IMG/VR virus record: IMGVR_UViG_3300042892_002848
Coordinates: 1-59,095 of that record
DNA: 59,095 bases
Strand: one strand, 5' to 3'
From: a virus
Under the pieces are notes generated by a model. It was not told where the DNA came from, ran no database searches, and was given only the letters and a program-made list of their open reading frames with translations. Position numbers and translations under genes: made by a program. Shown here in pieces: positions 14,754 to 48,645 of the stretch. Positions within the stretch are counted from its first letter, which is position 1. Each line of letters opens with the position of its first letter.

Positions 14754-14845
14754 TTTTGATTTCCAAAAAATATAAAAATTGCTGACAAGGCCAGGGCCAG
14801 CGGCAGGTTAACGAATGTCAGTATCAGTACCAGTATCCAGTGCAT
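14750..14845 (-). CDS. 31-residue single-pass membrane peptide
   Basis: Short gene linking DNA ligase to the 65-residue gene. Its ATG overlaps the ligase stop (TAATG) and its TGA overlaps the next ATG (ATGA), so it is coupled at both ends, which is strong support for such a short frame. The peptide (MHWILVLILTFVNLPLALA...) is almost wholly hydrophobic, with a short polar end (GNQK), so one membrane span is expected. Function unknown; small membrane peptides of this kind often tune host envelope proteins. Confidence 0.6.
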   Translation of the reverse strand: MHWILVLILTFVNLPLALALSAIFIFFGNQK

Positions 14846-16221
14846 TACAGTTTCTCTCCGGCTTCAAATCCACGGAATCGAACATGTCGAGGAAATCTCA
14901 AACTGAATGATCCGTCTTGATTCTGAGTAACTGCATCAGCTTGGATTTCGCCAATGACGCCAAGTAACTGATCCCTGGCAGCCCAAAACTCATCACGATC
15001 ATTATCGCTATAGCCAGTACCAACATTGACCCGAATATTTCGTTCATTGTCAACTCCTTCGTAAATTATAGCACCCAGTCGGCCCTGATTGCGACCAGTT
15101 CCTTCTTCAAAACCCACAATGGTCAGGTCAACTGTGATTGTGGGTTTCCATTTCATCCAGTGGTCACTACGCTTGCATTCGTACGGGGCGTCAAGATTCT
15201 TGATCATGATGCCTTCATATCCTTGCTCCACACTGGCGCTGGCAAAACGCTGCATGACATCATGTCCTTCAGCAGTGTCCAAGTCCACATTCATACCTGG
15301 CATGATGCGCAAGCAATCAGTGGTGTCAAGAATGGATCTTGCACTTTCAATCCATTCTATACGCTTGTGCTGTTGTAAATTGCAGTGACCTTCTTTGAGT
15401 GCATCCAGCGGAACAATATCAAAAATGTGATAAACCATGCCAGTTGTGTTGGCATTGCTTTTGCGTTGTGCCTGTTTCATCAAGGCTTGAAAATTCTCAC
15501 CTACAATTTCACCATCCAACACAAAGTGGCCACCTGTTCCTCGGCCGTATTGGAAAGCTCGACGGTTGTCCAGGACAGCCTCAGCAATTTGTGGGAAGTT
15601 TTCAAACTCCTTGCCATTGCGGCTGTACAACACACAGCTACTGCCCGACACCACTGCAATAACACGCACACCATCCAGTTTGACTTCCAGGCGTTTGATG
15701 CCTTTCATTTTCTTGGGCTGATCAGTTGAGTCCTGTGCCAGCTGCACACCGAACACAGGGATTTTCCATTCTGTTTTGCCCAGCACCTTGTTCAGAGTCT
15801 TTTCTGAAATACCACATCTTAGGTCCTTGATCAGCACACGTCGACAAACTGTGTTCCATTCCACACTGTCAAACAGTTGGGACACTTCCTTGATACGGTC
15901 GCGAGCACGATGGCCAGTGATAGTACGAGTACGCAGATCTTCTAGCAGGGCCCAGAATGTGGACCAGGGGTTTGGAGCATGAGTGATGCCTGTAGTCTCA
16001 GACACTTGTTGCACACCAAACACATGGAAGGGATTGTAGGCCTGATAAGCGTTGAACAAAAAGCCCTGAGCACTGGCACTGCCCAATTTTGCAGCCATCA
16101 GGGCTTTTTCGATTACTTTTTCTTTGTGCAATCGGCTGTCGGAACTTTCAAGATCTTGGATCCAGTCGGCTGACATGGTTAGACCATCAAAGCGTGAGTT
16201 GGAAAAATTGATGTCATTCAT
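14845..16221 (-). CDS. 30: ATP-dependent DNA ligase (T4 gp30-like)
   Basis: 458 residues. Seals nicks in replication and repair. Nucleotidyltransferase motifs in order: I EVKLDG (Lys181 takes AMP), III SRNGKEF (200-206), IIIa VLDGEIV (234-240), IV YEGIMIKN (335-342), V WMKWKP (355-360), followed by an OB domain to the C-terminus. An N-terminal alpha-helical domain of about 150 residues is present, as in T4 ligase. Starts 13 bp after the 116-residue gene upstream and is followed by the overlapping membrane peptide gene. Confidence 0.95.
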   Translation of the reverse strand: MNDINFSNSRFDGLTMSADWIQDLESSDSRLHKEKVIEKALMAAKLGSASAQGFLFNAYQAYNPFHVFGVQQVSETTGITHAPNPWSTFWALLEDLRTRTITGHRARDRIKEVSQLFDSVEWNTVCRRVLIKDLRCGISEKTLNKVLGKTEWKIPVFGVQLAQDSTDQPKKMKGIKRLEVKLDGVRVIAVVSGSSCVLYSRNGKEFENFPQIAEAVLDNRRAFQYGRGTGGHFVLDGEIVGENFQALMKQAQRKSNANTTGMVYHIFDIVPLDALKEGHCNLQQHKRIEWIESARSILDTTDCLRIMPGMNVDLDTAEGHDVMQRFASASVEQGYEGIMIKNLDAPYECKRSDHWMKWKPTITVDLTIVGFEEGTGRNQGRLGAIIYEGVDNERNIRVNVGTGYSDNDRDEFWAARDQLLGVIGEIQADAVTQNQDGSFSLRFPRHVRFRGFEAGEKL

Positions 16222-22612: not shown

Positions 22613-23122
22613 TTATTTGAATAAATCCACTAGCTCTAGGGCCAATGCATTGTTACCCAAGACTGGACTCAAATCCTTGTGTTCATCTCGGTACATTTTA
22701 AGTTTTTTTGGATTGTTTGCTAAACCACTTGGTAAACTGGCAGAAACATTGCTCAATCGGTCTGCACTCTTTACCAATTCACTTCCTGGAGTTTGAGCAA
22801 TCTTAGCAATGGCATTTGCCATTTTTTCTTTTCGGTTCTCTCCGCGGCCTGTTACTGCCCAAACTATATTGGCAACATTATCACCAAATTGTTGTTTGAT
22901 TTGTTCCAATGTGACATCTGTATCTTCCACTATATCATGCAACCAAGCAGCAGCAATTATTTCTGGGTCTTGTGTAATTGTTTTAACACGGGCAACAACA
23001 TCCGCCAAATGGGTGGCATAAGGGTGTACACCGTATTTTTGGTTCTTGTGTGCATCAACAGCAAGAGTTTTTGCCTTCAACTCTATGTCATCTGCACTTT
23101 CTAACAGTTCATTTATTTTCAT
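22613..23122 (-). CDS. Small alarmone hydrolase-like HD protein (SpoT/MESH1 type)
   Basis: 169 residues. HD-fold (p)ppGpp 3'-pyrophosphohydrolase pattern, close in layout to animal MESH1: HPYATH (metal His38), WLHDIVEDT (His62-Asp63, then Glu66-Asp67), then PGSELVKSADRLSN with Asp121 and Asn125. No synthetase domain, so it is a stand-alone hydrolase. It should lower the stringent alarmone, lifting the block on nucleotide synthesis and growth. Encoded between nrdA and the aldolase/nrdB. Its N-terminus MKINELLESADD resembles those of several virion-region proteins. MESH1 can also act on NADPH, so other substrates are possible. Confidence 0.82.
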   Translation of the reverse strand: MKINELLESADDIELKAKTLAVDAHKNQKYGVHPYATHLADVVARVKTITQDPEIIAAAWLHDIVEDTDVTLEQIKQQFGDNVANIVWAVTGRGENRKEKMANAIAKIAQTPGSELVKSADRLSNVSASLPSGLANNPKKLKMYRDEHKDLSPVLGNNALALELVDLFK

Positions 23123-29529: not shown

Positions 29530-29853
29530 TTAGATTCTAAAGCTTTCTCCGCAGCCACACCGATCACGTTCGTTGGGATTTGAAAATTCAAATCCTTCAT
29601 TGAGACCTTGGCGAACATAATCCACAGTCATGCCGTCCAGATATACTTCGTGTTTTTTGTCCACCAGCACAGAAAAATCAGGCTGAGCATAATTTATGGT
29701 ACTGTTGTCACCGGTGTGTGCATCGACATATTCTAGCACATAAGCCAGACCCGAACACCCTGTGGTTTTTACTGCTAGACGTATGCCTATGCCACCGCGT
29801 TTTTCTAACAATCGTTTGATTTTGTTTCGGGCAGTGTCAGTGAACAAGATCAT
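29530..29853 (-). CDS. iscA: A-type iron-sulfur carrier IscA
   Basis: 107 residues. Carries Fe-S clusters from the scaffold to target enzymes. All three cluster cysteines are present: Cys33 (TTGCSGL), Cys99 and Cys101 (CGCGESF). The start lies 17 bp inside iscU, so the two are co-translated. Sequence could also be classed as ErpA or SufA; the family cannot be split with certainty by eye. Three radical SAM proteins in the window need 4Fe-4S clusters and are plausible clients. Confidence 0.93.
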   Translation of the reverse strand: MILFTDTARNKIKRLLEKRGGIGIRLAVKTTGCSGLAYVLEYVDAHTGDNSTINYAQPDFSVLVDKKHEVYLDGMTVDYVRQGLNEGFEFSNPNERDRCGCGESFRI

Positions 29854-30223
29854 GTTTGATCCTGTAGTCAGCTACCGCCGCTTTGATGGCATCTTCTGCA
29901 AGTATTGAACAATGAATTTTAACAGGGGGAAGGGCAAGCTCAGTAGCAATTTCGCTATTTTTGATCGCTTCCGCCTGCTCAAGGGTACGTCCTTTGACCC
30001 ATTCAGTAACAAGCGAACTTGACGCAATCGCGCTGCCGCAACCGTATGTTTTAAATCTTGCATCTGTGATTACTCCGTCAGTAACTTTAATTTGCAGCTT
30101 CATCACATCACCGCACGCCGGCGCTCCAACCATACCAGTGCCCACATCTGTGTCTTCTTTGGAGAAACTACCCACATTGCGTGGGTTCTCGTAGTGGTCT
30201 ACAACTTTTTCTGAATATGCCAT
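29837..30223 (-). CDS. iscU: Iron-sulfur cluster scaffold IscU
   Basis: 128 residues, full length. Site of Fe-S assembly with sulfur from IscS. Cluster ligands Cys37 (GAPACGD with Asp39), Cys62 (YGCGSA) and Cys105 (KIHCS) are present, as is LPPVK (98-102), the Hsc chaperone recognition site, so it should work with host HscA/HscB and IscS. The sequence is strikingly like proteobacterial IscU, suggesting fairly recent capture. Driven by its own perfect promoter (30,242-30,270) with AAGGAAAA before ATG, and coupled to iscA. No iscS in the window. Confidence 0.96.
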   Translation of the reverse strand: MAYSEKVVDHYENPRNVGSFSKEDTDVGTGMVGAPACGDVMKLQIKVTDGVITDARFKTYGCGSAIASSSLVTEWVKGRTLEQAEAIKNSEIATELALPPVKIHCSILAEDAIKAAVADYRIKHDLVH

Positions 30224-30282: not shown

Positions 30283-30645
30283 TTAAACGCCGCGATCTTT
30301 ATTCATTGCTGATTTGGCAGCGGCAGCCACAATGTTCTGAGCCTGGTTGACTGGCATTTTGGGTGGAGTAGGTGCTTCGCCACCTTTGAACACAATTGGA
30401 TCCTGGGAGTCTGGTGCCAATGGTTCTAGCACATTGCTGAGAGGAGGTTGTCCCACAATATCGGCCAGTTGGTTTGGGGCAATGGTAATGCCCAGGCTGC
30501 GGGCTAATTCAATAAAGGCTTTTTGATCAATTTGTTTTTGAGCACCTGTGTCCGCAGAACGACCAGCCAGAAAACTAACCAGGCCCATGAGTTTTTCAGG
30601 CTCGGGTGTGGATCCAGTTGTGTTGGCTACTTCATCAATTCTCAT
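30283..30645 (-). CDS. Virion-region protein with M-R-I-x-E start, unknown function
   Basis: 120 residues, beginning MRIDEVANTTG, then helices and a Pro-rich middle (APTPPKMPVNQAQN). The start overlaps the stop of the 286-residue gene (TAATG). It ends just before the iscUA promoter. Its first residues follow the short M-K/R-I/L-x-E pattern shared with four other proteins in the window, which may be a packaging signal (inference). Confidence 0.6.
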   Translation of the reverse strand: MRIDEVANTTGSTPEPEKLMGLVSFLAGRSADTGAQKQIDQKAFIELARSLGITIAPNQLADIVGQPPLSNVLEPLAPDSQDPIVFKGGEAPTPPKMPVNQAQNIVAAAAKSAMNKDRGV

Positions 30646-31505
30646 TATCTGCGGGCTCGGCCCAGTGATGCAGCAGGTGTGGCAACATCTGCATCTAAAT
30701 CATCAGCGGCCATGGCATCAAGGTCATCCACTTCGTCGCCCACACCGGCTGCAGCATCAGCTGCTAGATCAGCTCCAGCATCCATACCCGGGATTTCAGC
30801 AACAGGTGCGGTTTGTCCAGTTACCACGCCCAAGGCAGCATCCAGTTGTTGTTTAGTACCTTGCAAGGTCTGCATCAATGCTGTGAGAGCAGCAGTAGTG
30901 TCTGAGTTAAATTGCGTGGCTTGATCAACGCCCACTTGATTCTTGATTGAATCAACCAGGGCTGGCAATTCTTTGAACTGTAATTCACTTACATCTTCCA
31001 ACATGCCTTGCATTTTGTCTACCATGTCTTGAGCAGCCAGCACCACTTGAGCTTGTTGTACTTCGCTTTCTTTGAGATAACGGTGGGCACGGCGTAGACG
31101 ACTCTCAGCCACAGCAGCAGCCTGATCATTGACCATTTTTTGTTCATCGGGGCTTAGAGATTGACCCTTCTTGATCTTGTCCTGTGCCATTTTGAGTTTG
31201 GGATCAACAGGAGCTCCTGGTTTGACAGCAGGGTTAGTGATTGCTGCAGGAGCAGTCATTTCACCAAGGTGTGCTGTGAGAGCTTGTTCCATCATGACCA
31301 GTTTGAGATAGTCGGGATTTTGTTCGCTGGTGTGACAAGCTGATGTAGAACGGTGCTCGCCCAGGATGCCACGCACACGATTCAACATGTGACTGGCTTG
31401 ACGACGGTTCAACTGGTCAAAGCTGAGTTTGGAACCAAAGTAGCTTTCGAATACCTGGCTGATTTGTTGGGTGGCCCGTGGTGCGGCTAGTTCATGCAGT
31501 TTCAT
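30645..31505 (-). CDS. Helical virion-region protein, unknown function
   Basis: 286 residues. Begins MKLHELAAPRA (the shared short N-terminal pattern). Long helical and coiled-coil-like middle (about 80-200: KMAQDKIKKGQSLSPDEQ, AQVVLAAQDMVDKMQGML) and an acidic C-terminal tail full of Asp/Ala (DEVDDLDAMAADDLDAD). Such a layout fits a scaffolding or internal head protein. A late promoter CTAAATA is 24 bp upstream and GAGG precedes the ATG. Confidence 0.6.
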   Translation of the reverse strand: MKLHELAAPRATQQISQVFESYFGSKLSFDQLNRRQASHMLNRVRGILGEHRSTSACHTSEQNPDYLKLVMMEQALTAHLGEMTAPAAITNPAVKPGAPVDPKLKMAQDKIKKGQSLSPDEQKMVNDQAAAVAESRLRRAHRYLKESEVQQAQVVLAAQDMVDKMQGMLEDVSELQFKELPALVDSIKNQVGVDQATQFNSDTTAALTALMQTLQGTKQQLDAALGVVTGQTAPVAEIPGMDAGADLAADAAAGVGDEVDDLDAMAADDLDADVATPAASLGRARR

Positions 31506-32222: not shown

Positions 32223-32654
32223 TTACTCCAATGTGGTATTTATGCTAGTAAACCAAATGTTCTGCTGGTCACCTTGAGTGGTCAACACTGTGGCAATGCC
32301 TGGCTGTTCGCCCAGCCCGGCAACCATGGGCACACCTTCACAGTCTACCAAGAGGCCTGCTAGAGGATCAGGATTGTTGTGCATGTCAAACACGCCTTCG
32401 CTTTCGCTCACAAAACTAAACTGCCACATGCCATCAATTCTAGCAGGTTGAGTTATTTCTTGTGGTTGTGTTCGCAGCCCAAATATCTGTAAGAGTGTTT
32501 CGTAGTTGCGTTGCTGATTACGACTGCGATGCCAGTTTTCATGATTGTGCACTGGTTGTCCTGCACGGTCTTGGTAGGGTATTTCGCTGGAACGAAACGC
32601 ACCGGTTACCCCAGTTCGGGTGCAGTCAAATAGGGTTCGGCATTGTATTTTCAT
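32223..32654 (-). CDS. Conserved T4-like virion-region protein
   Basis: 143 residues from the ATG at 32654 (MKIQCRTLFDCTRTGVTG), a start conserved in T4-like marine phages; the frame to 32675 runs into the terminator region. Contains WHRSRNQQRNYETLLQIFGLR and FSFVSESEGVFD. Late-type TTAAATA ends 8 bp before ATG with no ribosome site, so the mRNA may be nearly leaderless. Function unknown. Confidence 0.65.
   Translation of the reverse strand: MKIQCRTLFDCTRTGVTGAFRSSEIPYQDRAGQPVHNHENWHRSRNQQRNYETLLQIFGLRTQPQEITQPARIDGMWQFSFVSESEGVFDMHNNPDPLAGLLVDCEGVPMVAGLGEQPGIATVLTTQGDQQNIWFTSINTTLE
32237..32244 (-). promoter_or_regulatory. Late promoter CATAAATA
   Basis: One mismatch from the T4 late consensus, 17 bp before the ATG at 32219, with GGAG in between. 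Confidence 0.6.
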
Positions 32655-32671
32655 TCTGCAGTTATTTAATG

Positions 32672-32706
32672 CCAAAAAGAAACCCCGGATTTTTTAAGTC
32701 CGGGGT
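32672..32706 (-). terminator. Rho-independent terminator of the 136-residue late gene
   Basis: Perfect 8-bp stem ACCCCGGA/TCCGGGGT (32,682-32,689 and 32,699-32,706) with a T-rich tract on the minus strand. It closes the transcript that starts at 33,179, making that gene monocistronic. Confidence 0.88.
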
Positions 32707-33201: not shown

Positions 33202-35109
33202 TCATGATTTGGGATTGTTTTGTGCTCGATTTTGAGCAGCAAAAGCATTGGGGTCAAAGCGGTTCACTGCCTTGGCATAGCCTGCAGGAGTGGCCATTAC
33301 CCAGCCTTCTTGGCCAGGATGCTGTGCATCTGCTTGACGCAGCAGATCCATTTTGAGATCGTGCAGCAATATAAATGCTGTGAACGCTGCTGCCAGTGCA
33401 CTGGTATTGCTGGTGGGACTCTGTAGGTATTCCACAATGTTACGGAACTTTTGCGGTGTAACTCGGGTCTGTAGCCAGTCTCCAAATTCAGACAACAGGC
33501 TAGCAGGATTCAGCGGCGCACCTACTTTGGTGTTGATAAAATCCACAGCCAGTTTGGCCAGGTCTGTAATCTTGTTGGCTCGCAGTTCCGCAGGATTAAA
33601 CAAGGTGTTGATGGCAGCACCTTCTGACCGAACCAGAGCTTTTAGTTGTTTGACCAAGGCAGGTTCAGCTTCAAGTTGTTTGGGAGTTGCCGGACGTTCC
33701 AGCATGAGTCCGGGCACAGGATTAAAGCTCACACCACGCAAGGGCTGACGTGGTTCACCCTGATCACTGTACATGCTGTGGATAGCAATGCCAATGGTAC
33801 TGTTGCCTATGCGCTGCCCCAAGGCACTTTGAACTGGAATTTTGTATTCAATAGTATTGGGACGGAATACATAGTTGCCAGACACAGCAGGCGGAGTGTC
33901 CATGTACAACAGGTCTCCTTTGACATAGCCACGGAATCCTGTGGGCAGTGCTGCCTCCAACACAGGAAACAACTGAGCATACAACTGAATCAATTCTGTG
34001 CGATCGCCTGAACGTCGGCTCTGTATGTCAGCCATCATCTGGGGACTTGTGGCCAGGCCATCGTAGCCTTTGGCTTCAAATCCTGATCCGTCTGTGAGCA
34101 CAAACTCACCTGTAGCGGGCTTGCGTCCAAATATCACAGCAGGTTTGCCATCCCATTTGGCAGTCACTGTGCTGGGTTGCTCGATGGCCTGTTGCACAAT
34201 GGTCAGAGCATCCCGAATACCTTGTGTGCCACGACGGAACACAAGATCTTCCAGGTGTTCAATTCCTTTGGCTCGGCCACCTACTCCGGCTGCTTCAGCT
34301 TCAGCAATCATTTGCACTGTGTCTGGTGCTTCAACCAATGGCATCATGCCTTGATTCACAATGCGATCTCTCAAGCGAGCCAGAAAATTCACATCACTTT
34401 CTTTCACGCCCATGTCAGGTTCTGCAAGTTCTTCTCGAGCCAAATACTCACGAAAATCTTTCAGCTTGGCATCACGTTCAGGATCACGGGCTAGATTTTG
34501 ATAAATGGTTTCTACATTTTTTAGATCATCACGACCTCGGCCTGCGCCCAGCAAAGTCTGGGCCACATAGTCAGGATCAAGACCATCTCGCACCAGTTGA
34601 TTGGTTGTTCGGCTGAACATGCCATTTGCGCCCACTCGAAGTCCCAGATGCTTGGCCAGGCTTGACATTAGCACGTTGCGCACCATGCCTTTATAGGCCG
34701 AGTCTGTGCCGCCGGCATAGAAAAATGTACCCCAGTCCACATTAGGAAAAAACATAAAATCTGTTTGCACAAAGCCATTACGAGCATTGCCGGCAATGGG
34801 AGTCTTGAAGTGCACTTCGCCGCCTTTCTTGACCCACTCACGAGGATCTTGACCGCTCTTTTGCACAAACTGTGTGAGTGCTGCTGCAATTTGATCTTTA
34901 GTGGTGTCTTGTAGATCCACTGCTAGATCAAGATCACCTGAGGTGGCAGCACGGCCTGTGGAGCCTAGCCAACGATCCTGTGGAAACTGCATGCCCAGTA
35001 CACCTTCTAACCAACGAATGGTAGCAGGCACATCTGCTTGATTGATACGCTGGGTGGCCGGATTGCCGGCAGCGTCCTTGAATACGTTGCCGCCTTCTAG
35101 TAGTTTCAT
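33202..35109 (-). CDS. Fusion of Pol-beta-type nucleotidyltransferase and ligase-like (KxDG) domain
   Basis: 635 residues. Residues 45-130 show a Pol-beta nucleotidyltransferase signature: GST (49-51), DLDLAVD (59-65) and a later acidic strand VQTDFMF (114-120). After a linker, IEHLEDLVF (283-291) leads into TAKWDGKPAVIFG (316-328), like motif I (KxDG) of covalent nucleotidyltransferases such as ligases, followed by YVKGDLLY (395-402), like motif IIIa, and EYKI (421-424), possibly motif V. The C-terminal 200 residues are helical. Related T4-like phage proteins exist without known function (I believe the family is filed as DUF6267). Starts MKLLEGG and overlaps the upstream gene by ATGA. A nucleic-acid repair or nucleotide-transfer role is inferred from motifs only. 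Confidence 0.7.
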   Translation of the reverse strand: MKLLEGGNVFKDAAGNPATQRINQADVPATIRWLEGVLGMQFPQDRWLGSTGRAATSGDLDLAVDLQDTTKDQIAAALTQFVQKSGQDPREWVKKGGEVHFKTPIAGNARNGFVQTDFMFFPNVDWGTFFYAGGTDSAYKGMVRNVLMSSLAKHLGLRVGANGMFSRTTNQLVRDGLDPDYVAQTLLGAGRGRDDLKNVETIYQNLARDPERDAKLKDFREYLAREELAEPDMGVKESDVNFLARLRDRIVNQGMMPLVEAPDTVQMIAEAEAAGVGGRAKGIEHLEDLVFRRGTQGIRDALTIVQQAIEQPSTVTAKWDGKPAVIFGRKPATGEFVLTDGSGFEAKGYDGLATSPQMMADIQSRRSGDRTELIQLYAQLFPVLEAALPTGFRGYVKGDLLYMDTPPAVSGNYVFRPNTIEYKIPVQSALGQRIGNSTIGIAIHSMYSDQGEPRQPLRGVSFNPVPGLMLERPATPKQLEAEPALVKQLKALVRSEGAAINTLFNPAELRANKITDLAKLAVDFINTKVGAPLNPASLLSEFGDWLQTRVTPQKFRNIVEYLQSPTSNTSALAAAFTAFILLHDLKMDLLRQADAQHPGQEGWVMATPAGYAKAVNRFDPNAFAAQNRAQNNPKS

Positions 35110-36164
35110 CTGCGTTTGCTTTCTGCGGTCGCTGTTCTTGTTAGTTGTTTACCCGGTGTTACAGATCCAGGTGTTGGCCGCAAGTTCATTATGTTTTGAG
35201 CATTGAATGATGCTGGGTTAGAAGTTGGTGTTGCGCCGGCAGCGGCAGCAGGAGCAGCGGCAGCAGCGGCAGCAGGTGCAGCAGGTGCAGCAGGTGCAGC
35301 AGGTGCAGCAGGTGCAGCAGGTGCAGCAGGTGCAGAGCTGCCCATTGCAGATTCTATTCTTTCAATTGCCATGGCTTCATCAGTATTTCTAGGGTCCAGC
35401 CGCTGTGCACCAATGTTGATTGATCCGTCTCTATTTGCTTTCAGTTGAATCAGTTGAGGGTCTGCCTTGGGATTTGTCTTCAGTTCTGCTTGTATTTTTT
35501 GAATAATCAACTGGTCCACACGGTCGCCTGTTAATTTATAAGATCCAATGTTGTAGCCGCCGCCAGGATTTGCCACTATCTTGGGCATGGTTCCAGACAT
35601 CATGCGACGTTTGTCCGGGTAAAATTGTGTCAAAGACATAGCGTCATAGGCAGTTTGACTCAGAGCTTGCCATTGTGCCAGTCGTTGCTGTGCTGTGGTT
35701 GGCTGATCAAAATTCAAAATGTCTTGCTTGGCCGCGGTCAAGCGATCAACCAAGACTTTTGCTTTGGGCTGGGACAATTCATCCACGTTGGCAGGCAACC
35801 CTTGTGTGTAATCAGTGCCAACAGATCCCTTCATCAACACCTTGTGTAATCTAACATCAAGATCTCTCGCAAGTTCACTCCTGGATGCCGGAGATAATTC
35901 CTTGCGGTCTAGCACTTTTTCTTTTTTGAGCATGTCAGCAATGGCCACGTTCCAGGCCTGCATTTCTTGTTTGGCTGCTTGAGCAATTAGTGGACGAGCT
36001 TGCTGGGCCGCTGCTTTTTGTCTGGCATCTCCATACGCAGAGGTCACAGTACCTCCTGCATCGCCTGTGTCAGGCACACTGATACCAGCACCTTGTGCAA
36101 ATCCTGCCCCAAATGCTCCTAGAGCGTTTTCATTCAGTCGCAGGGTAATTTCATGAATCTGCAT
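35106..36164 (-). CDS. Virion-region protein with Ala-Ala-Pro repeat linker
   Basis: 352 residues from the ATG at 36164 (AGGAG upstream). Starts MQIHEITLRLNENA (the shared short N-terminal pattern). Gly/Ala-rich region, then helices (to about 190), then a repeat-bearing middle with two similar units, GGGYNIGSYKLTGDRVDQLI and GSINIGAQRLDPRN, then a low-complexity PAA repeat encoded by seven perfect 9-bp units, and a basic tail. Overlaps the nucleotidyltransferase fusion gene by 4 bp, so the two are made together. Probably an internal or structural virion component (inference). Confidence 0.6.
   Translation of the reverse strand: MQIHEITLRLNENALGAFGAGFAQGAGISVPDTGDAGGTVTSAYGDARQKAAAQQARPLIAQAAKQEMQAWNVAIADMLKKEKVLDRKELSPASRSELARDLDVRLHKVLMKGSVGTDYTQGLPANVDELSQPKAKVLVDRLTAAKQDILNFDQPTTAQQRLAQWQALSQTAYDAMSLTQFYPDKRRMMSGTMPKIVANPGGGYNIGSYKLTGDRVDQLIIQKIQAELKTNPKADPQLIQLKANRDGSINIGAQRLDPRNTDEAMAIERIESAMGSSAPAAPAAPAAPAAPAAPAAPAAAAAAAPAAAAGATPTSNPASFNAQNIMNLRPTPGSVTPGKQLTRTATAESKRR
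35272..35334. repeat. Seven tandem copies of a 9-bp unit (GCAGGTGCA)
   Basis: Perfect in-frame repeats encoding Ala-Ala-Pro units in the minus-strand virion-region gene. Degenerate GCA/GGC copies continue to about 35,238. Multiples of nine keep the frame, so copy number can vary without breaking the protein. Confidence 0.95.
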
Positions 36165-36399
36165 GTGTTCTCCTGACAGATCTTGAAAATTTACCAGAAT
36201 CTCGAGTGCGAATGGCATTCAGTAGTTTTCTAGTGAGATTGTCCGCTTGCTCAGTTGAATACTCCAATTCAATCTGCTCCAGTAATCGTATGGCAGAATC
36301 AATCAAGTTGCTGGCACGATTTTCAATCAACAAACGGCGATCACGTTCTACATACAACGTGTCCAGTTCTTCTAGTATACTGCGTGTCTTTTTTTGCAT
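36151..36399 (-). CDS. Small helical phage protein, unknown function
   Basis: 82 residues, charged and fully helical (RSILEELDTLYVERDRRLL... ), likely a coiled coil. First gene of the minus-strand virion block, with CTAAATA at 36,418 and AAAGG before the ATG. It overlaps the next gene by 14 bp. I associate this start with T4-like marine phage genomes. Confidence 0.65.
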   Translation of the reverse strand: MQKKTRSILEELDTLYVERDRRLLIENRASNLIDSAIRLLEQIELEYSTEQADNLTRKLLNAIRTRDSGKFSRSVRRTHADS

Positions 36400-37408: not shown

Positions 37409-38497
37409 TTAAATCAAATCTACCAGGTCCGGAAATGCTGTTTTCCAGCTGTTGTTACGCCTTGAATCCCAGGTGGCAACAAAATCTCGCCATTCATGCA
37501 AGGTCAACGTCTGCGGCAAATTGCTAATCATTTTGTGTATCACGTGAGTGCTAGGGTATTTTGTCAAAATCAAATGTCTAATACCTGGAGACATTTTGTT
37601 TAGGTCCCATATTCCATGACAGGGATGAACATTTATTTCTGTTTTACCACCGCCGTAGTTTGTGGCCAAATTTTCTGAGATCCATGTTTCTACGCGGTCA
37701 AAATAATAGGCATTAAGAAAATTAACTGTGAATTCAATTCTAAACATCACGTTCCGAATGTCTGGATTGTGTTTGATACGCAACAGATTGTCACTGACTT
37801 TGTTCCAGGGCAGAGGCCAACGCACATAATCAAACTGTTGTTCTATTCCGTCTATGCTGGCTGCAAAGATCACTGTTTTAAAGTTGCGCCACATTGCCAG
37901 GGTTTCATCATTGGGATATATTGACCCATTTGTTGTGTAGTGCAAGGTGACCTGGCCAGGATTTGAAATATGTTCTAAAAATCTAAGATGTGTGTCTGTA
38001 AATAGTGGTTCGCCGCCAAAAAATTTGATATATTTAATTTTGTCCAAGGACACAGCTTTTACAATTTTGGCAATGTACTGATCAACAATTGTTTTATCAC
38101 TGTGAAATTTTACCGGTTGATTGTTGAGTTTTTGAGTTTCCTTGAGCCACAAAGAGCTGGATTCTTTCTTGCAAATCACACACGCTGCATTACACTCGTT
38201 GTCAAGATGTATGTCTATACTGACCGGATCAAGGGATGTTTCATCGTTGTCAATCCAATCAACGCCACTTTGTCTAAGACTTTGTTGTCCAGCTTGTTCT
38301 AATACGCGGCAACGGTTACATTCAGGAGTCCAGTCTGTTATTGTGTTTAATCTTTCCTGTCTGTCCTTCAACAAATCCGTACCTAGCAATATCCCTTTAC
38401 GCTGGTAAAGACAACAAGGGTTAACACCAACCTCATTGTTTCTGCCAATTTGAAACGAATACCCATTGGATAAGTATCTACAAAATTGATTTATCAT
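37409..38497 (-). CDS. Radical SAM protein with twitch/SPASM-like cysteines (first)
   Basis: 362 residues. 4Fe-4S motif C-x3-C-x2-C at 102-106-109 (CNAACVIC), the SAM-binding FFGGEPLF, and extra cysteines before it (Cys28, Cys29, Cys60, Cys63) of the kind that hold an auxiliary cluster in twitch-type enzymes. The C-terminal IRHLILTKYPS... WDSRRNNSWKTAFPDL recurs in the second such protein at 47,432. Substrate unknown; related phage proteins are annotated only as twitch radical SAM. Directly downstream of gp41 (1 bp apart). Needs Fe-S clusters, which phage IscU/IscA could help supply. Confidence 0.85.
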   Translation of the reverse strand: MINQFCRYLSNGYSFQIGRNNEVGVNPCCLYQRKGILLGTDLLKDRQERLNTITDWTPECNRCRVLEQAGQQSLRQSGVDWIDNDETSLDPVSIDIHLDNECNAACVICKKESSSLWLKETQKLNNQPVKFHSDKTIVDQYIAKIVKAVSLDKIKYIKFFGGEPLFTDTHLRFLEHISNPGQVTLHYTTNGSIYPNDETLAMWRNFKTVIFAASIDGIEQQFDYVRWPLPWNKVSDNLLRIKHNPDIRNVMFRIEFTVNFLNAYYFDRVETWISENLATNYGGGKTEINVHPCHGIWDLNKMSPGIRHLILTKYPSTHVIHKMISNLPQTLTLHEWRDFVATWDSRRNNSWKTAFPDLVDLI

Positions 38498-47431: not shown

Positions 47432-48559
47432 TTATTTTGCTACAAATTCTGCTAGTTCCGGAAATACAATTGAAAAATCTAGCTTCCTGTAATCGTCATG
47501 CTCGTGCAATTTAGATTTGAATAAATCAAAATAATCAGAATCGTTGGTGTTTTTTAGCAATTTGATCCACGTTTTTACATCAAGGTGTTTGCTGTTTTCT
47601 AAATGATTTGTTATTTTATCTTTTATTTGATCGGGCCATACGCCAGGTCTCATGTGCGCCGGAGAATGCACCCTTCCTAACCAAGGTCGCGGTAGTCCTT
47701 TGTTGTTGCACCAAGTAAAAAATTCGTCCAAATAGTAAATGTTATACGCACTGACAGTGTGGCTAACACTGAGTCTAAAATTATTGAGATTTGATTTTTT
47801 AATATAATTGTCAATATGGCAATTAACCTCAATCCAACTGGCAGGAAATCGAATGTATTCATAACGGTTGCCAACTCCGTCTATGCTTAGTTGCATATCA
47901 ATTTCTTTAAAATGCGTCCATAAATCCCACCATTCGTCATCTGGAAATACAGTTGCGTTGGTGGTATAATGTAATGTGATATTACTGGCTTGCCCAGACA
48001 ACACATAATAGTTCAACAATGCTTTTTGTTCCGGCACTCCACTTAGAAAGGGTTCGCCGCCGGGGATGTCAATATGAATAATACCAGGGGCATTGTTTAC
48101 AAAATCAGTAACAAATTCTTCTTTGAAAAACTTATGATGTTTTATTGTTATGTTGTAAATGTCTTTGGCTTCATTGTGCCATTTGCTAGACGACGTTGGT
48201 CCACAAGTGATACATTTTAAATTACATGTATTACCAAATGCAATGCTGGCTGTAATAAAATTATTTTCAGTCAACTGATAAATTTGGTATTGATCTTTCC
48301 ACCGAGTGTGGTCAAGTTGCCGCTTACTTTCAATACCGTTTTGTTCTTCAATTTGGCATCGTTCGCAGCCAATCGGCCATTGGTCATTGGTAAATTCAGT
48401 TTTTATTTGTTTTAAAAAATCACTGTTGGCATATGCAGTAATTGAGTCTGTCTTGATATTGTGTATTTTGTCATAGTGTTTGATCTGAAATTTACAGCAA
48501 GGTGTAATTGCACCAGTAGGTGAAAAATCTATATTGGACCAAGGACTATAACAAAACAT
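47432..48559 (-). CDS. Radical SAM protein with twitch/SPASM-like cysteines (second)
   Basis: 375 residues from the ATG at 48559. The open frame continues to 48613, but that stretch contains a terminator, so the shorter start is right. 4Fe-4S motif C-x3-C-x2-C at 112-116-119 (CNLKCITC), IPGGEPFL, and outer cysteines 21, 22, 65 and 68 as in the first radical SAM protein; both share a similar C-terminal region (WIKLLKNTND... FPELAEF). AT-rich compared with flanking genes. Late-type TTAAATA ends 7 bp before the ATG. Substrate unknown. Confidence 0.85.
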   Translation of the reverse strand: MFCYSPWSNIDFSPTGAITPCCKFQIKHYDKIHNIKTDSITAYANSDFLKQIKTEFTNDQWPIGCERCQIEEQNGIESKRQLDHTRWKDQYQIYQLTENNFITASIAFGNTCNLKCITCGPTSSSKWHNEAKDIYNITIKHHKFFKEEFVTDFVNNAPGIIHIDIPGGEPFLSGVPEQKALLNYYVLSGQASNITLHYTTNATVFPDDEWWDLWTHFKEIDMQLSIDGVGNRYEYIRFPASWIEVNCHIDNYIKKSNLNNFRLSVSHTVSAYNIYYLDEFFTWCNNKGLPRPWLGRVHSPAHMRPGVWPDQIKDKITNHLENSKHLDVKTWIKLLKNTNDSDYFDLFKSKLHEHDDYRKLDFSIVFPELAEFVAK

Positions 48560-48566
48560 TGTGCAA

Positions 48567-48573
48567 TATTTAA
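48567..48573 (-). promoter_or_regulatory. Late-type promoter TTAAATA, leaderless spacing
   Basis: TTAAATA on the minus strand, between the terminator and the radical SAM ATG, 7 bp from the ATG; no ribosome site is present. Confidence 0.5.
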
Positions 48574-48577
48574 CATT

Positions 48578-48609
48578 AAAAAAAACAGGTACCGTTTTAA
48601 GGGTACCTG
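48578..48609 (-). terminator. Rho-independent terminator downstream of the AAA+ gene
   Basis: Perfect 8-bp stem CAGGTACC/GGTACCTG (48,586-48,593 and 48,602-48,609) followed on the minus strand by eight T. It ends the transcript of the AAA+ gene and the 35-residue gene, just before the radical SAM gene. Confidence 0.9.
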
Positions 48610-48645
48610 CCAAAAGCCTGGGCCGGAGCCAACCAGCGCCCAGGA

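Follow-up and report, generated by a model that had tools for sequence, protein, structure and literature searches.

A gene in a 59,095-base virus record (the window, by which I mean the whole stretch of DNA analysed) encodes a protein of 635 residues in which a predicted Pol X-like nucleotidyltransferase is joined to a predicted ligase-like domain, DUF6267, and in which short (L/I)xE motifs precede each domain. I propose, with a probability of about 60%, that it is a polyprotein packaged in the capsid, where the prohead protease would cut it, and that after injection it would extend and seal broken 3'-OH/5'-P ends. Its parts are listed here, with an arrow at each predicted cut.

33202-35109, minus strand: fused PolX-like / DUF6267 ligase-like protein, 635 residues (open reading frame; AlphaFold2 model built on 68 homologues, mean pLDDT 88.4)
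35095-35109, minus strand: putative leader MKLLE (residues 1-5), ending in (L/I)xE, with the predicted cut before G6-G7 (leader counts; pLDDT <50)
34411-35094, minus strand: Pol X-like nucleotidyltransferase domain, residues 6-233, with G49 S50, D59, D61, D117, K140 and R144 (Foldseek, VIA, conservation)
34264-34410, minus strand: interdomain linker, residues 234-282, mostly disordered, with LVE259↓A and IAE270↓A (pLDDT mostly <50; linker counts)
33217-34263, minus strand: DUF6267 ligase-like domain, residues 283-631, with K318WDG, G398-D-L-L, E601-G602 and K613 (PF19782, model, VIA)

A sequence-only reading of this DNA had proposed that one protein combines a Pol-beta nucleotidyltransferase with a ligase-like half, and both folds are indeed predicted within the single open reading frame. 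In the full-length AlphaFold2 model residues 1-5 and most of the linker (about 234-280) fall below a pLDDT of 50. A Pfam search of the whole protein returned one domain, DUF6267 (PF19782), at residues 283-618 with an E value of 2.5e-30, and no match in the N-terminal 280 residues. That E value, together with high-confidence models with matching folds, places the observation of both halves beyond chance. The same reading had assigned the gene to the late region, but it has replication genes (DnaB-like helicase, primase) on one side and virion genes on the other rather than standing in a pure late block.

The GS/DxD/D pattern of Pol-beta enzymes that had been read in the N-terminal half is present as G49-S50, D59-L-D61 and D117 and is conserved in every subgroup; G49, D59, D61 and D117 are invariant in the family, and position 50 is S or T. 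Foldseek matched the domain to Pol mu, Pol beta and TdT with a probability of 1.00 and an E value of about 0.005, and VIA-align superposed 163 of its residues on Pol beta 139-335 at 3.4 A (Z 10.6), a match that covers the palm and thumb. The 8-kDa lyase / HhH domain is absent: the N-terminal domain begins at the equivalent of Pol beta residue 139. By sequence, the Pfam Pol X palm profile found no match at E<=10 in G000 and six relatives and none among 26 nucleotidyltransferase members, and a search of the PDB gave no match of value for the protein. Membership of Pol X thus rests on fold and motifs, and from these residues 6-233 are predicted to be the palm and thumb of a family-X polymerase (Pol beta, lambda, mu, TdT), in keeping with the earlier assignment of this half. 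As a separate matter, membership of the RlaP family was considered and rejected, as the PF10127 profile matched none of the 26 nucleotidyltransferase members and nothing in a search of 8 genomes. The domain was not found in a search of cellular genome contigs, and a plasmid search found none.

For the C-terminal half, two checks had been named in advance, the conservation of Lys318 and the fold. Motif I, K318-W-D320-G321, is invariant in all 53 of 53 sequences carrying the ligase half, and residues 280-635 have the fold of the ligase superfamily, the best 50 VIA matches listed all being RNA or DNA ligases of the covalent nucleotidyltransferase superfamily. The remaining motifs lie elsewhere than first supposed. 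Residues 395-402 had been taken for motif IIIa, but 394-402 (GYVKGDLLY) is motif III, with D399 replacing the Glu; residues 421-424 had been taken for motif V, but K423 is replaced by R, S, A or other residues in homologues. Motif IV is E601-G602-[WYF]-V604 and motif V is K613-x-V615-x-R617, both invariant, so that across motifs III, IV and V of the covalent nucleotidyltransferases G398-D399 (Asp for Glu), E601-G602 and K613 are invariant or nearly so. A helical insertion separates motifs III and IV.

Modelled alone, the ligase domain has a pLDDT of 92.1 and a pTM of 0.87. Its highest VIA Z score is to the Naegleria RNA ligase (8.7), with human LIG1 (7.2), T4 Rnl2 (7.1), fungal Trl1 (7.1) and T4 Rnl1 (7.0) also matched; by Foldseek alone the matches are weak, the best being an archaeal RNA ligase at E 0.013. 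DNA ligases possess an OB fold. Here the chain ends about 18 residues past motif V, in a single helix, and the ligase half is therefore without an OB domain; the phage encodes an ordinary ATP-dependent DNA ligase, OB domain included, elsewhere, at 14845-16221. Residues 283-631 are accordingly best described as a predicted covalent-nucleotidyltransferase ligase core, closest in modelled fold to RNA ligases and lacking the OB fold. DUF6267 is PF19782, PHROG 455 ('unknown function') and cyanophage T4-GC 71; NCBIfam gave no match, and DUF6267 is named in no paper in the literature searched. To my knowledge, both the ligase assignment and the overall combination are new. A family that has no listed function, although it occurs in hundreds of genomes of marine cyanophages and their relatives, thereby gains a testable one.

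The nucleotidyltransferase and ligase domains form a conserved pair in large phages, whether fused, fused in reverse or encoded by neighbouring genes. Among 80 environmental loci collected via the nucleotidyltransferase domain, 22 carry the nucleotidyltransferase+DUF6267 fusion, one carries the reversed fusion, 42 carry DUF6267 as a separate, mostly adjacent gene, and five carry a divergent ligase gene beside the nucleotidyltransferase. At 10 of the 80 no ligase partner was found within reach, and the motif-I candidates there were not convincing. All 80 of the 80 loci collected via the full protein are fusions. The reverse-order gene (L304:4771-6669) runs from ligase to nucleotidyltransferase, with an (L/I)xE ahead of each domain.

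In the jumbo phages Phosso, Atu_ph07 and PA5oct the N-terminal half is a stand-alone protein, and the gene immediately before it, or one further back in the case of PA5oct, has the ligase motifs EK[IL]DG, EG[VY]V and K-x-x-D. The Atu_ph07 partner gives a weak Pfam match to RNA_ligase (E 0.002). When DUF6267 was compared with these jumbo-phage ligase genes, hhalign aligned them at motif I and at PNTI.Y with a probability of only 5%, so the case for their homology is drawn from motifs and gene order.

A tblastn search with the C-terminal half matched 402 phage records. Most are T4-like cyanophages, in which DUF6267 has a gene of its own, close to those for the gp41 helicase and a cytidylyltransferase. 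These cyanophage proteins belong to the same family as the C-terminal half studied here, but have neither the Pol X-like half nor the leader. In S-PM2, DUF6267 is instead fused to a cytidylyltransferase-like domain (L341:3480-5255, S-PM2d138), with neither leader nor linker site. A search of bacterial and archaeal genome contigs returned DUF6267 on 23 contigs, most from marine MAGs, and I take these to be mostly viral contamination; the contigs filed as bacterial and archaeal genomes (L343-L364) are probably phage contigs.

The T4 gp21 prohead protease cleaves after L/I-x-E, and T4 propeptides are 7-65 residues long (PMC9026906). The leader in the window, at 5 residues, is shorter than these, so a targeting signal may lie elsewhere. 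Across the family the nucleotidyltransferase leaders vary in length and sequence, yet all 52 distinct ones end in Glu directly before GG-x-x-F, and 50 of the 52 end in [LI]xE; the pelagiphage-type DUF6267 leaders carry (L/I)xE in 24 of 27 distinct cases. In the fusions an [LI]xE lies just ahead of the ligase domain in 60/60 distinct linkers, against a background of 27% in random 45-residue windows of the same proteins, although these leader and linker counts come from sequences related by descent and are not independent events. The reversed fusion has LFE↓G before the ligase and LTE↓GGNVFK before the nucleotidyltransferase. Cyanophage DUF6267 genes, by comparison, begin without a leader, and the four leaderless cyanophage-type DUF6267-cytidylyltransferase fusions have no [LI]xE in the linker. 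The separately encoded jumbo-phage nucleotidyltransferases, from three phages, likewise have no leader and begin M-GG or M-SG. The leaderless cyanophage-type lineage is a natural control for the (L/I)xE pattern, which recurs across several architectures despite the relatedness of the sequences. The window itself is a fragment. Three related large phages (G001, G003, G004) encode a gp21-type protease (PF03420), and two of the three also have the gp23 capsid protein; by eye, their gp23 reads YLKE↓NASAG close to where the mature form should begin.

The surroundings of the gene also touch on the virion, and the genes concerned are as follows.

35106-36164, minus strand: upstream partner gene read from an internal ATG, MQIHEITLRLNE↓NALGAF..., with a conserved leader
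32223-32675, minus strand: downstream gene, homologue of PA5oct gp250 (BLASTP E 5e-7)
30645-31505, minus strand: virion structural protein phrog_14154, starting MKLHE↓LAAP

The sequence-only reading had described the following gene as fibrous-looking, but the gene it meant, 35106-36218, is upstream and overlaps by 4 bases. Its leader, MQIHE(I/L)..., is kept in relatives while the body is about 30% identical, and from this conserved leader its product is probably an internal head protein. The annotation of PA5oct gp250 places it in the virion by ESI-MS/MS, and the PA5oct homologue of the nucleotidyltransferase and several of its neighbours are likewise annotated as virion proteins ('structural protein ESI-MS/MS'). 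A citidylyltransferase (T4-GC190), possibly the DUF6267 neighbour, has been reported in S-SM1 virions (PMC3037559).

In pelagiphages and methylophages, adjacent nuclease-like, kinase and cytidylyltransferase genes bear similar leaders. Two such clusters of genes with (L/I)xE leaders, L083:2911-8155 and L089:3869-8532, hold a nuclease-like gene (TD..I..ISLK.G..QLMSGG), DUF6267, a Zeta/AAA_33 kinase (L083 only) and a cytidylyltransferase.

What, then, would such a protein do? I infer packaging, cleavage, injection, the substrate and both activities; what computation shows is that the halves have the two folds and the catalytic residues, that their pairing is conserved and that the (L/I)xE sites are too. 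With its leader MKLLE↓, which carries (L/I)xE, the protein would be placed inside the prohead, where a gp21-type protease would remove the leader and cut the disordered linker at LVE259↓A and IAE270↓A. Two enzymes, a minimal nucleotidyltransferase of Pol X type and a ligase working through a covalent lysine, would result and be injected with the phage DNA. The first may restore the missing nucleotide or nucleotides at a 3'-OH end, and the second may load AMP onto Lys318, pass it to the 5'-phosphate and seal the ends, so that damage by host nucleases would be reversed ahead of phage gene expression. As for function, the best guess on sequence and model is still one made in the sequence-only reading, repair of nucleic-acid ends or of tRNA; that reading had overlooked the signature of a capsid-targeted polyprotein.

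The nature of the substrate divides this proposal into two versions, RNA and DNA, both of which keep the packaged kit. An RNA such as a cut tRNA is slightly favoured over gapped DNA, since the modelled ligase half is Rnl-like and without an OB domain; DNA repair is a plausible second, the nucleotidyltransferase half being closest to DNA polymerases.

Repair of RNA in the manner of RlaP and its RNA ligase, where the nucleotidyltransferase would put back a nucleotide that a cut tRNA has lost and the ligase would seal the break, has close to an even chance in my view. The closest fold to the ligase half is the Naegleria RNA ligase, with T4 Rnl1, Rnl2 and Trl1 among the matches listed, and the weak RNA_ligase match of the Atu_ph07 partner points the same way, as do the RlaP/RNA-ligase pairs reported from jumbo phages (PMC7824862). 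However, the nucleotidyltransferase is not RlaP by profile and, among solved structures, DNA polymerases are its nearest relatives, the window has no tRNA genes, and no 3'-phosphatase or kinase was seen beside the gene in the window.

A DNA gap-filling and nick-sealing enzyme, acting in base excision repair or end joining on the injected genome and comparable to PgVPolX or to the Pol X and ligase of African swine fever virus, is possible but rather doubtful. The ligase half is closest to RNA ligases and, with one helix past motif V, lacks the OB fold that DNA ligases have; the phage already has a DNA ligase with an OB domain; and the 8-kDa lyase domain is missing. For DNA speak the closest folds of the nucleotidyltransferase half, which are DNA polymerases beta, mu, lambda and TdT, and the precedent of PgVPolX, a working viral PolX-ligase fusion (PMC5537341).

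The third alternative, which is not a version of the packaged kit, is an uncut, fused enzyme made in the cytoplasm during infection, with (L/I)xE structural or due to chance, and it seems unlikely: the motif is short and frequent in the background windows, and cyanophage homologues lack the leader, but it marks where domains begin in several architectures, its flanks and its x varying, it is missing from the leaderless lineage, and one homologue is annotated as a virion protein.

Each part of the proposed repair kit has, by analogy, a precedent in PgVPolX, in the RlaP/RNA-ligase pairs or in the T4 internal proteins. PgVPolX, the Pol X-NAD+ ligase fusion of Phaeocystis globosa virus (PMC5537341), also has a Pol beta-like core N-terminal to a DNA ligase, but it has its own 8-kDa lyase domain, a NAD+-dependent LigA-type ligase and an algal host, and prohead-protease sites are unreported for it. 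The jumbo-phage systems of RlaP with an ATP-grasp RNA ligase (PMC7824862) share a Pol-beta-superfamily nucleotidyltransferase, an Rnl-type ligase and an occurrence in large phages, whereas here the nucleotidyltransferase falls outside the RlaP profile, the ligase is DUF6267 and the pair is fused with capsid-processing sites. African swine fever virus Pol X is likewise a minimal Pol X without the 8-kDa domain, but it stands alone, is partnered with a classical DNA ligase and belongs to a eukaryotic virus. The T4 internal head proteins (Alt, IPI-IPIII) have an N-terminal leader ending in (L/I)xE and are cut by gp21 and injected with the DNA; they are single proteins, however, and here there is a two-enzyme fusion with a further conserved linker site.

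The packaged and injected polyprotein suggests that phages package nucleic-acid repair enzymes that are released by the prohead protease. If true, the protease would take on a new role, in maturing a polyprotein of enzymes, and injected counter-defences would gain a new class. The wider proposition, that large phages carry a capsid repair polyprotein that mends host-inflicted breaks before expression, with DUF6267 as the kit's ligase, I hold tentatively and at somewhat less than even odds. The (L/I)xE signature may offer a simple route to listing further enzymes that T4-like and jumbo phages inject.

Several further genes were noticed along the way. In the window, an HD-domain hydrolase (HD_4, phrog_990) at 22613-23122 on the minus strand starts MKINELLE↓SADD, a leader of (L/I)xE type, and is possibly an injected enzyme. 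At three nucleotidyltransferase loci without DUF6267 (L312, L322 and L324) the next genes start VRAKEFILE↓GGWAS, which is leader-like, and may encode a different partner; at L312 and L324 the gene after the nucleotidyltransferase also has a leader-like start, MRFKEFLRE↓. Finally, also on the minus strand of the window, two radical-SAM-like genes (37409-38497 and 47432-48613) both match phrog_14086, and a NifU-like Fe-S scaffold gene (29530-30223) lies beside a gene that, by eye, is IscA-like.
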